From positions 62,001 through 126,000 of the forward strand of contig CAMVKH010000004.1 of the NCBI GenBank assembly GCA_947168065.1: 64,000 nucleotides of DNA, written 5' to 3'. The notes under the pieces are model-generated. The model worked only from the letters and a program-made list of their open reading frames with translations, was not told the DNA's origin and made no database searches. The DNA is from an uncultured Bacteroidales bacterium (GTDB taxonomy: Bacteria; Bacteroidota; Bacteroidia; Bacteroidales; UBA932). This document shows, piece by piece, positions 35,931 through 49,967 of this stretch (positions are counted from its first letter, which is position 1; each line of letters starts with the position of its first letter). The position numbers and the translations under genes were made by a program.

Positions 35931-36870
35931 ATACTGGGACCTCTGCGGCTTCGAAGATGCCGCTTCCGTGGTCTCAGAAGGCTATCTGGCTGAAAACGAC
36001 CTTCCCGATATCCTGGAAACCTACCTGGGCGACCTGGTGGGCGACGAGATTTTCGAATGGCACAATCTCTATTTCCCCCTGCTGATCAAACGCCTGGTCG
36101 TGAAAGACCGCCTGTCGGTGCAGGTCCATCCTGACGACACGGTCGCCGCCGAACGGTTTGGAGAATACGGCAAGACCGAGTTCTGGTACGTCCTGGAAGC
36201 GGAGCCGGACGCCCGCATCTGGATGGGCTTCAAGGAAGACACCGACGCCGGTGCACTCTACAAGGCCTGCCAGGAAGGAACCGCCGAGCAGCTGCTCAAC
36301 GCCTATGCTCCCAAACCGGGCGACTGCTTCTTCATCCCGACCGGCACCGTCCACGCAGCGGGCGGCGGGCTGAAGATCGCCGAGATCCAGGAAGCCTCCG
36401 ACATGACCTTCCGCCTCTACGACTGGGGCCGGGAATTCAACCCCGCCACCCGCCGCCAGATGCATCTCGACGAAGCGCTCGACAGCATCAACTACCGCAA
36501 ATACGACGAAGCCGCCTGCAGCTGCCATCTGGAAACCGATCCCAAAGTGGCTTCCGGAACGGACGACCGCGTACGCGTCCTGGTCGAAGACCCTCACTTC
36601 ATCCTCACCAGCCTGTCGCTCACCGCACCCGCCAAGGTTCCGATGGAAGATTTCAAGAGTTGTGTCGTGCTGCAGTGCCTGTCCGGATCGATGAATGTGG
36701 AAACCGACGGCGCGACCTTCCCGCTCGCAGCCGGCGAGACGATGCTCCTCCCCGCTTCGCTTGAAGACGTGATGCTTATCCCCGACGCCTGCGGCGTCCA
36801 CCTCCTGCAGGCCCATCTCCCTCAACCTCCCAAGGACGACGTCTACGACGGCCCCGAACCGGAAGCATAG
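35869..36870 (+). CDS. manA: Mannose-6-phosphate isomerase, class I
   Basis: ManA converts fructose-6-P and mannose-6-P, feeding GDP-mannose synthesis or mannose catabolism. The start is ATG 35869 (MKKLYPLKFRPQWMPKAWGG), the family start; the ORF track's 35824 is too early. 333 residues: the zinc site LSVQVHPDD and KTEFWYVL, FFIPTGTVHAAGGGLKIAEIQEASDMTFRLYDWGR, then the C-terminal cupin part. It overlaps the CPBP gene by 62 nt, a long same-strand overlap. Confidence 0.94.
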   Translation: MKKLYPLKFRPQWMPKAWGGEYWDLCGFEDAASVVSEGYLAENDLPDILETYLGDLVGDEIFEWHNLYFPLLIKRLVVKDRLSVQVHPDDTVAAERFGEYGKTEFWYVLEAEPDARIWMGFKEDTDAGALYKACQEGTAEQLLNAYAPKPGDCFFIPTGTVHAAGGGLKIAEIQEASDMTFRLYDWGREFNPATRRQMHLDEALDSINYRKYDEAACSCHLETDPKVASGTDDRVRVLVEDPHFILTSLSLTAPAKVPMEDFKSCVVLQCLSGSMNVETDGATFPLAAGETMLLPASLEDVMLIPDACGVHLLQAHLPQPPKDDVYDGPEPEA

Positions 36871-36872
36871 CC

Positions 36873-37071
36873 GGAAGGGTTTTAGATGAAAAACCCATGG
36901 CCGCCCGCGCCTTCAGGCGCTAGTGGAGGCCGCAAGGGCCGGCAATTTGGAATAGGAGGCCGTAACGGAGGGGTTTGGGGCAGCGGCCCCAGTAACTCAG
37001 ATATGGGAGGGGCCCAAGCTTGCTTGGGAGGGATGGAGCGAAGCGGAAGGTTTTTCAGCTAAAACCCTTCC
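36873..37071. ncRNA. Palindrome-bounded, highly structured element (candidate ncRNA or mobile palindromic element)
   Basis: Ends are 23-nt inverted repeats (36873-36895 and 37049-37071; 22 of 23 complementary, starting GGAAGGGTTTTAG). Between them are at least five short hairpins: GCGCC-TTCA-GGCGC (36907-36920), GGCC-GCAAG-GGCC (36928-36940), CCG-TAA-CGG, GGGGC-AGCG-GCCCC and CCCAAG-CTTG-CTTGGG. No coding frame is convincing. It fills the gap between manA and the OmpA-like gene. The strand is undetermined. It could be an RNA, a repeat family, or both. Confidence 0.5.
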
Positions 37072-37093
37072 AGCTACGCTGTAGGAAAGACGA

Positions 37094-38425
37094 TTATTTC
37101 TTGACGAATTCGACGCGGCGGTTCTTGGCACGGCCTTCGTCAGTGCTGTTGTCGGCGATGGGTTCGTGGGCGCCTTTGCCGACGGCAGTCAGACGCGAAG
37201 CGTCGATGCCGTTGGCCACGAGGGCGGCCACGATGGCCTCGGCGCGCTTCTGGGAGAGCGGATCGTTGACAGCGTCGGAGCCCGTGTTGTCGCAGTGACC
37301 TTGGACTTCGAAGTGGATCGACGGATCGTCCTTCATGATTTTCGTAATACGGTTGATCTCGCCGGTCGATTCGGGTTTGATCGTAGCCTTGCCGGTATCG
37401 AAGGTAATCGCGTAAGTCACGATCTTGCCGTCGGAAGCCAGACGGTCGTACAACGGCACGGCACCCTTGGCGATGCGGACGTTCTTGATGAAATGCGTGC
37501 GGGGAGCATCGCTGTTGCATTCGATGGTCAGCCATTTGGGAGCATTCATGTTGGGAATGTTGATGACCCGCTGCTCGTCGACATAGACTTTCAGCGCCCG
37601 TTTGTTGAAAGACACGGCGATGTGATGCCATTTTTCAAATTCGATGTTGCGCAGGTCATATTCACCCGACCGCCAGTCTTCACCGACTTTCCACCAATAA
37701 CGAACGACTTTGTCATCCGTCATCTGGTTCCTATCGACATCGGTCTGCGATTCCAGCCTGAACTCGAAAACGTTTTCCCTCCAGTTCTGACTGATATCAT
37801 CGGTACCCTCCAGCCTGAACTTTGCCTCGGACCACCCGTGAAGGTCCGCACCGTTCTCCTCTTCCCAGATTTTCTCGTGGATGAAGTAGGCGTCGAACTC
37901 GAAGGTGAACTGCTCCGTGAGATAGGGCTTGTTCTCATTGAACAGCGGGGTGATGATGGCATCCTGATAATTGAGGCACTTCTCGCCGTTGATCTCGACA
38001 ATCTCCGCATTTCCCTTGAAGATATCCCACCGGGACGGGAACTCACCGAGCTGCTCATTTTCCATCGTATCTTCAAAGATGATCTCATCGCCGGCGACGA
38101 AATCGTAGTTGTTCCATTTCATCTGGGCGCCTTTCTTCACCTCCTTCTGCGGAGCGGCAGCTTCTTCCGGCACAGCCATCTCATCCGGCACGACATCCCG
38201 GGCCTGCTGCTGATTCTGTTGTTGATTCTGCTGCTGGTTGTTTTTCTTGTCTTTTCCCAATTTCCCGTTGAGCAGGTCGTTGACGCCCTTCTCAACTTTG
38301 TTGCCGATGTTCTGTTCGGCAGCGTTTTTCGCCCGGTTCTTGAGCCGGTTGAGCACATCACTCTGGGCATAGGCACCGCTGCAGACCAGCAGCAGCGCGG
38401 TTAACAGCAATACGAGCTTTTTCAT
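37094..38425 (-). CDS. OmpA family outer membrane protein
   Basis: 443 residues from ATG 38425 (MKKLVLLLTALLLVCSGAYA signal peptide). After a short helical/Gln-rich linker (NNQQQNQQQNQQQ), residues 100-300 form a laminin-G/concanavalin-like beta domain (FEDTMENEQLGEFPSRWDIFKGNAEIVEINGEKCL...WHHIAVSFNKRALKVYVDEQRV). The C-terminus is the OmpA peptidoglycan-binding domain (FDTGKATIKPESTGEINRI...FEVQGHCDNTGSDAVNDPLSQKRAEAIVAAL...GKGAHEPIADNSTDEGRAKNRRVEF). It has no beta-barrel, so it is probably a periplasmic or outer-membrane-associated anchor. Confidence 0.9.
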   Translation of the reverse strand: MKKLVLLLTALLLVCSGAYAQSDVLNRLKNRAKNAAEQNIGNKVEKGVNDLLNGKLGKDKKNNQQQNQQQNQQQARDVVPDEMAVPEEAAAPQKEVKKGAQMKWNNYDFVAGDEIIFEDTMENEQLGEFPSRWDIFKGNAEIVEINGEKCLNYQDAIITPLFNENKPYLTEQFTFEFDAYFIHEKIWEEENGADLHGWSEAKFRLEGTDDISQNWRENVFEFRLESQTDVDRNQMTDDKVVRYWWKVGEDWRSGEYDLRNIEFEKWHHIAVSFNKRALKVYVDEQRVINIPNMNAPKWLTIECNSDAPRTHFIKNVRIAKGAVPLYDRLASDGKIVTYAITFDTGKATIKPESTGEINRITKIMKDDPSIHFEVQGHCDNTGSDAVNDPLSQKRAEAIVAALVANGIDASRLTAVGKGAHEPIADNSTDEGRAKNRRVEFVKK

Positions 38426-38501
38426 ATCGGTAAAACTTTGATTTTCGTGGGGTTGCATTCCTACGCAAATCTAACAATAAATATTGAAAATGCAAAAGAC
38501 A

Positions 38502-48830: not shown

Positions 48831-48939
48831 GCTGGAGCCAAAGTGCCTGACATACAGCAAATAACGTAATCTTGCCCTCCTGCCCAACAGGAGGGCAAGA
48901 TTGCACAAAATGCTGTTAATCAGCAGAAAAGGCTCCAGC
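48831..48939. repeat. Nested palindrome upstream of RAYT 2
   Basis: Three concentric inverted repeats: GCTGGAGCC (48831-48839) with GGCTCCAGC (48931-48939); ACAGCA (48854) with TGCTGT (48911); and a perfect 15-bp inner stem AATCTTGCCCTCCTG with CAGGAGGGCAAGATT (48868-48902, 5-nt loop). It could fold as a long cruciform. It lies 99 nt upstream of the transposase ATG. Confidence 0.65.
48840..48850. repeat. Direct repeat AAAGTGCCTGA, left copy
   Basis: The same 11-mer appears at 50136-50146 beyond the other end of RAYT 2; the pair brackets the gene. Confidence 0.45.
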
Positions 48940-49037: not shown

Positions 49038-49967
49038 ATGAGGGGAAGGATTTCTTTCAGGCCGGGGGCCATTCAGCACATCTATCAAAACACAGTTGAC
49101 GGTGTCCTGATCTTTTATTCCCGTTGGGATGCCCTGGTCTTCTTTACGACATTATCTGTCGCTGCGCGGCGCTACGATATTCGTATCCTGGGCGTCTGCC
49201 TGATGGCCGACCACATCCACATACTGGCGGAGGCGCCCTGCAAGAAGATACTCGACAGTTTCGTCTGCCTCTATACAAGCTGGTTTGTCCGGCAATACAA
49301 CATGTGGTATGGCCTGACGGGGTCCCTGTTCAATCCCAGATACGGTCTGGCCTCGAAAGTGACGGACAAAGACATCCGCAGTGCCATCGCCTATCTGTAC
49401 AACAATCCTGTTGAACGGCAGCTTTGCAGACGGGCAGAGCAGGCGCATTGGAATTTCCTGGCTTATGCCGATAATCCCTACCCTTTTTCTCAACCCATCC
49501 GGCTGGACAAGGCGCGTGCGCCGATGCGCAGGGCAGTCGAAGAAGTCAGGGCTGCCCGCAAGGAAGACCGTCCCCTGAACCATGCCCAGCTGAAAAGGAT
49601 AACGGCCAAACTGAATCCGCTTGAACAGCAGCAACTTACAGATTTCATCATCACTTCCTACAATTGTGTGGATTATAAGGATCTGTTCTACCGCTTCGGT
49701 GATTACACATCCCTGATCACTGCCATCCATACAACGGCAGGCAGTGAATACGCAATAAGGGAAGATTTTGTCGGGCGATCCGACACGATCTACAGACAGA
49801 TAACGGAATTCCTGCTTCAATCGCACAGGATCGGCAGCATCGAGGAACTGCTCAGACTGCCTATGGAAGAACGACTCGGGATGGTCGCGCCCCTGAACCT
49901 CCGGACAGGAGCGTGGCGACGCCAGATTGAAAAGTATCTCCATCTCCCGCCGGGCAGACAAGGATGA
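49038..49967 (+). CDS. REP-associated tyrosine transposase (Y1/HUH family), copy 2
   Basis: 309 residues. HUH motif in CLMADHIHILAEA (about residues 54-66); the candidate catalytic Tyr is in AIAYLYNNPVERQLC (about residue 118), the usual position in this superfamily. After the roughly 150-residue Y1 domain there is a long C-terminal helical part (DKARAPMRRAVEEVRAARKE...) unlike that of copy 1, so the two RAYTs are distant paralogues, each with its own repeats. It is flanked by a nested palindrome upstream and inverted CAGCAACT/AGTTGCTG downstream. GC content is lower than the neighbours. Confidence 0.82.
   Translation: MRGRISFRPGAIQHIYQNTVDGVLIFYSRWDALVFFTTLSVAARRYDIRILGVCLMADHIHILAEAPCKKILDSFVCLYTSWFVRQYNMWYGLTGSLFNPRYGLASKVTDKDIRSAIAYLYNNPVERQLCRRAEQAHWNFLAYADNPYPFSQPIRLDKARAPMRRAVEEVRAARKEDRPLNHAQLKRITAKLNPLEQQQLTDFIITSYNCVDYKDLFYRFGDYTSLITAIHTTAGSEYAIREDFVGRSDTIYRQITEFLLQSHRIGSIEELLRLPMEERLGMVAPLNLRTGAWRRQIEKYLHLPPGRQG

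Follow-up and report, generated by a model that had tools for sequence, protein, structure and literature searches.

A dispersed element of 3' intergenic regions in Bacteroidales with a pseudoknotted core, private arms and a probable mobile character

The 200-nt stretch between manA and an OmpA-like gene is a composite of two dispersed repeats, not a single-copy RNA. The outer repeat, element B, has a core fold that is conserved by covariation, including a pseudoknot, and is interrupted in this copy by a second repeat, module A. B is probably a structured mobile element, non-autonomous and located in 3' intergenic regions, and we put the probability of this reading at about 0.6. Dispersed palindromic repeats are a known kind of element. 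B is a variant of that kind, and a pseudoknotted core with private, co-changing arms was not found described. The B family, with its phylogenetically supported pseudoknot, is absent from Rfam and reaches tens of copies per genome across many members of one gut-bacterial genus.

The locus lies in the window, which is the whole 64,000-nucleotide stretch that was analysed. The earlier note on this DNA described a non-coding element in the manA gap, closed by 23-nt inverted ends pairing at 22 of 23 positions and carrying hairpins with TTCA and GCAAG tips. All of these descriptions hold. The inverted ends (36873-36895 and 37049-37071) show the 22/23 complementarity and can be lengthened to 32-nt arms (36864-36895 and 37049-37080), in which 29 of 32 positions are paired (91%) around a spacer of 153 nt. 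The gap is convergent, with manA on the forward strand ending at 36870 and the OmpA-like gene on the reverse strand at 37094-38458, and the left arm begins within the last codons of manA (AGCATAG). No plausible open reading frame was found in the 200-nt stretch. Folded as RNA, the stretch has a minimum free energy of -91.5 kcal/mol, while 200 dinucleotide shuffles averaged -73.6 (sd 5.0, z = -3.6) and none of them folded as well. The two hairpins, GCGCC-TTCA-GGCGC and GGCC-GCAAG-GGCC, are both located within the nested module A. The parts of the window copy are as follows.

36864..36895, + strand: left arm, 5' strand of helix P1 of element B (32-nt inverted repeat, 91% complementary); its first 7 nt overlap manA and are the end of that gene including the stop codon
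36896..36906, + strand: 5' part of the B core, P2 5' strand plus loop (CATGGCCGCCC), from alignment to intact copies
36907..36994, + strand: nested module A (GCGCC-TTCA-GGCGC ... TTTGGGGC-AGCG-GCCCCAGTA), from alignment of further A copies; it interrupts P2 and the pseudoknot of B, as seen from intact B copies without A
36995..37012, + strand: B segment with the pseudoknot 3' strand ATGGG (37003-37007, + strand) and the conserved AGGGG (37008-37012, + strand)
37013..37028, + strand: P3 hairpin CCCAAGC-TT-GCTTGGG, a covarying helix in 70 aligned copies
37029..37033, + strand: conserved AGGGA, 3' of P3
37035..37048, + strand: P4 region (GGAGCGAAGCGGAA; GC-GAA-GC tip), from alignment of copies
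37049..37080, + strand: right arm, P1 3' strand (inverted repeat)

The division into two modules came from a search of the own genome (G000) with the 200-nt stretch. The 27 matches split into module A, at query positions of about 35-122 (window 36907-36994), and element B, at about 1-34 and 131-199. Module A has about 20 further copies in this genome, solitary and in tandem (93- and 114-nt spacing), and it sits at the place of B's second hairpin. The family is a caution against reading hairpin-rich intergenic DNA of these genomes as single RNAs; such stretches are mosaics of repeats nested in one another. Module A is itself structured. Its GCGSC-WTCA-GSCGC hairpin covaries, and GGCC/GGCC is found against GACC/GGTC (window, L008, L005). 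Copies of A directly adjoin tRNA genes at L011, L021 and L024.

Element B is present in about 20 copies in the own genome and in up to 50 in congeners. The pattern GGGAGGGGCCCN{5,20}GGGAGGG gave 20 matches in G000 and 15 in G036, and the reversed-pattern control gave none. Of 40 genomes in the genus, 33 carry B according to a covariance-model search, with up to 50 copies; several congeners were without it. Across an order-wide sample B was detected in 4 of 198 genomes, namely G000, a genome from another genus in the same family and genomes from two further families. The spread across the order is patchy. The contigs with B include Candidatus Cryptobacteroides and Bacteroidales MAGs, and many of the genomes compared are metagenome assemblies. 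The plasmid search gave no match to the element. Among viral contigs the pattern matches were alphaproteobacterial-type repeats and Vibrio filamentous phages, with no B.

Intact B is about 120-130 nt long and folds in the order P1, P2, pseudoknot, P3 and P4, with a four-helix pseudoknotted core; P4 is missing from some copies. P2 spans 4 bp or more in 113 copies. In 112 of these, the two loop nucleotides that follow CCC pair with the two that precede GGGAGGGG; shuffled sets averaged 50 such matches and never exceeded 62. Five combinations occur (CCCGT/ACGGG, CCCTC/GAGGG, CCCAT/ATGGG, CCCGC/GCGGG and CCCAC/GTGGG). The variable pseudoknot pairs lay outside the search pattern, whereas the invariance of the G-run and CCC is partly imposed by it; two natural variants of these letters exist (L169, L191). 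In an alignment of 70 sequences, P2, pseudoknot and P3 pairs were formed in 98.6% of cells, a figure inflated for P2, for which the sequences were picked, with the pseudoknot pairs unselected. The covariation score of this alignment was 0.376, compared with 0.117 after shuffling and 0.011-0.100 with the partners slid. The homologue search and covariation check proposed in the earlier note came out positive, with about 20 copies in the own genome and covariation above all shuffles and slid controls. B resembles structured RNAs in its covarying secondary structure. The first P3 pair is A-U in 88 copies, G-U in 39, G-C in 4 and A-C in 1. The 39 G-U against 1 A-C at this single position suggest that one particular strand of B folds. 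Rfam covariance-model scans of the window, of B and A copies and of the pattern relatives gave nothing relevant, and no paper describing element B was found in a search of the open-access literature.

The arms are private to each copy. The mean local score of arm complementarity was 20.2 within copies and 8.3 for arms swapped between copies, the arm tails have a mean identity of 31% between copies, and in 19 of the 112 arm pairs the pairing runs without a mismatch for 15-39 bp. In copy pairs whose cores are at least 85% identical (mean 90%), the arms are only 66% identical, each still complementary. For instance, the arms AGGTATTCCATC/GATGGAATACCT of L222 in G036 correspond to AGGTATGGGCTC/GAGCCCATACCT of its orthologue L270 in G027. 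Arms that stay paired and diverge in orthologous copies imply that they change by matched substitutions or that one arm is rewritten from the other. Whether near-identical cores with diverging, paired stems reflect selection on the fold or template switching of DNA is a testable question. The copies are natural compensatory mutants for dissecting an RNA or ssDNA function. That an elaborate fold is kept while nearly every copy has its own stem sequence suggests that B is mobile and that its folded strand is important.

Comparison of genomic sites favours mobility. The manA-OmpA site carries the same element in G036, whereas in G034 it carries B without A, in the opposite orientation and between recognisably related arms; in G027, G063, G029 and G018 the element is absent. 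The 11 G036 sites looked up in G000, G027 and G034 gave 31 orthologous comparisons, of which 6 showed B and 25 did not. Its orientation differs between G000 and G036 at L200 and L202. At L220 and L224, the junction is filled by one B subfamily or another, or by A copies, depending on the species. Near-identical copies also occur at unrelated sites. Five such copies in G067 (99% complete, another family) agree through the core, the right arm and the first 70 nt or so of right flank; they part within a terminator-like hairpin, and their right flanks beyond it differ. Four of the five extend to the end of a contig, which is normal for repeats this similar. At the L198 site in G036, B stands between two copies of another dispersed repeat (CGCCGCGAAAACACTGTGAGAGGCTTCAGG...GTCGTCGCGG), which is single in G000 (L198/L259, L204/L262).

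Of the two options in the earlier note, the palindromic mobile element is the favoured one. It agrees with the dispersed copies, their presence or absence at orthologous sites, the nesting and the inversion, but the copies have no terminal repeats in common and no target duplications, which the note had named together with many copies as favouring a mobile element. Copies were indeed many, but target-site duplication was at the control level (0.719 observed against 0.720 for shuffled pairs). The other option, a large structured RNA of a new type, has partial support from intact copies, whose strongly covarying pseudoknotted fold has no Rfam match, but the window copy is not itself one RNA, its P2 and pseudoknot being interrupted by A. 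We infer that B is mobile and non-autonomous. Its folded single strand, RNA or ssDNA, would be recognised by a trans-acting mobility factor or by host hairpin recombination. Insertions would be tolerated at, or targeted to, 3' intergenic positions, and the arms would travel together with the core. Arm pairing may be kept through sequence change by selection of the fold or by template switching between the inverted arms; template switching that rewrites one arm from the other would also account for the inversions. Against mobility, no enzyme was found and no movement was directly observed. Ordinary recombination among repeats in mosaic intergenic regions could yield some of the flips and turnover. 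Moreover, complementarity kept in orthologues (L222/L270; manA in G000/G034) could reflect selection acting on resident copies, and so a host function.

The main rival is a structured non-coding RNA or 3'-end element that serves the host (a terminator, an mRNA stabiliser or a protein-binding RNA) and is multi-copy through its many operons. The two readings grade into each other. The strong covariation of the pseudoknot, the near-invariant core letters, the excess of G-U over A-C at the first P3 pair and the compensatory changes at orthologous sites are all in line with a host RNA. So is the position. B is located at stop codons and terminators in 3' intergenic regions, and its arms finish close to stop codons, in some cases covering them. 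Convergent gaps are enriched, with 32 convergent, 55 tandem and 5 divergent contexts against 60/324/49 in a baseline obtained with a simple codon-usage gene finder. In tandem pairs, however, the strand of B is random (25 same, 30 opposite). The absence of a fixed orientation to the neighbouring gene argues against a sense-strand cis element. A host RNA would also have to be present or absent among close relatives, missing from several congeners, flipped at conserved loci, located in some cases beyond a separate terminator hairpin and, in the window, tolerated with its pseudoknot broken by A. This rival is considered somewhat unlikely.

Much less probable is a REP/REPIN-type element moved by a Y1 (RAYT/TnpA-REP) transposase. 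Like BIMEs, B is dispersed, palindromic, located downstream of genes, mosaic and nested; such short palindromes with RAYT are known from many phyla. Certain REPs are located within target palindromes (PMC3733652). The atypical structures that flank TnpA-REP genes of subclass 2.6 in Bacteroidetes (PMC6006769) count for this reading, as do the Y1_Tnp genes of the genome, one of them in the window. On the other hand, none of the three Y1_Tnp genes in G000 is flanked by A or B, and Y1_Tnp does not track B in the genus, since no Y1_Tnp was found in G021, a 96%-complete genome with 24 B copies. The arm feet of 96 copies carry no consistent GT[AG]G or CGTC tag relative to the control (GTAG 4 versus 3, CGTC 9 versus 13), and the excess of GTGG (8 versus 1) is weak. 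B is also much bigger than a REP and differs from REP, BIME and REPIN elements in its four-helix pseudoknotted core and private arms. The Y1_Tnp (RAYT-like) gene of the window lies at 49038-49967, and a long hairpin just upstream of it (about 48834-48935) belongs to another repeat family (TGGAGCC...GGCTCCA), with a similar one in L240.

Among other enzymes, RVT_1 was found in none of the near-complete B-bearing genomes G165, G067 and G217 (99% complete) and G011 (95%), which rules against a retroelement such as a group II intron or retron. DEDD_Tnp_IS110 was found in none of ten B-bearing genomes searched, which rules against an IS110-type element. No recurring neighbour gene that looked linked appeared among 136 copies; the clusters consisted of assorted housekeeping genes or of spurious frames.

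A palindrome at the DNA level only, in which cores drop into pre-existing terminator hairpins and the private arms are old host hairpins, is likewise highly improbable. It would suit arms that differ from copy to copy, the small simple hairpin in G000 where G036 has B (L204/L262), and hairpins that share their base with some B arms (GCGGGTGG...CCAGAGC) and bear another core of 35 nt (GCGAGCATTTTTCTGCGAGCGGGACGA; L018, L050, L067, L135, L226). But the genes abut without any hairpin at the empty L218 sites of G027 and G034, the same arms enclose divergent cores at different loci of one genome (L120/L184/L190), and the covariation of the pseudoknot is left unexplained.

Several other known systems come close to B. 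MITEs are similarly non-autonomous and multi-copy, with inverted-repeat ends and no open reading frame. In contrast to MITEs, B has terminal inverted repeats that are not shared by its copies, shows no target duplications and has no parent transposon that could be found. The structured RNA classes of Rfam also have conserved core letters, covarying helices and a pseudoknot, but B matches no family, is dispersed in tens of copies and is polymorphic for presence and absence. G-rich hairpin repeats of alphaproteobacteria, Microbacterium and Vibrio filamentous phages have a core of GGGAGGGGCCC-hairpin-GGGAGGG like that of B, and the Microbacterium copies have private arms as well. Unlike B, the bacterial G-rich repeats examined have no P2 or pseudoknot. 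Their kinship to B is a tentative lead, because they were selected with B's own pattern, for which some tens of chance matches are estimated across the whole collection. It is unlikely, though conceivable, that B is the Bacteroidales branch of a cross-phylum group of mobile structured single strands with a GGGAGGGG-CCC-hairpin-GGG-AGGGA core. Their first GGG would be paired with a CCC in cis, through a pseudoknot in Bacteroidales and through nested helices in alphaproteobacteria, Microbacterium and Vibrio filamentous phages, and each would have its own stems rewritten while moving. The Vibrio filamentous phages (L312; Villovirus Vf33 and similar records) carry GGGAGGGGCCCGCTTTGCGGGAGGGA in an unannotated intergenic stretch. 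The intergenic hairpins of Microbacterium have their private arms around GAGCATCGGGAGGGGCCC...GGGAGGGAACCCGCTCTGCGAA (L097, L105, L123).
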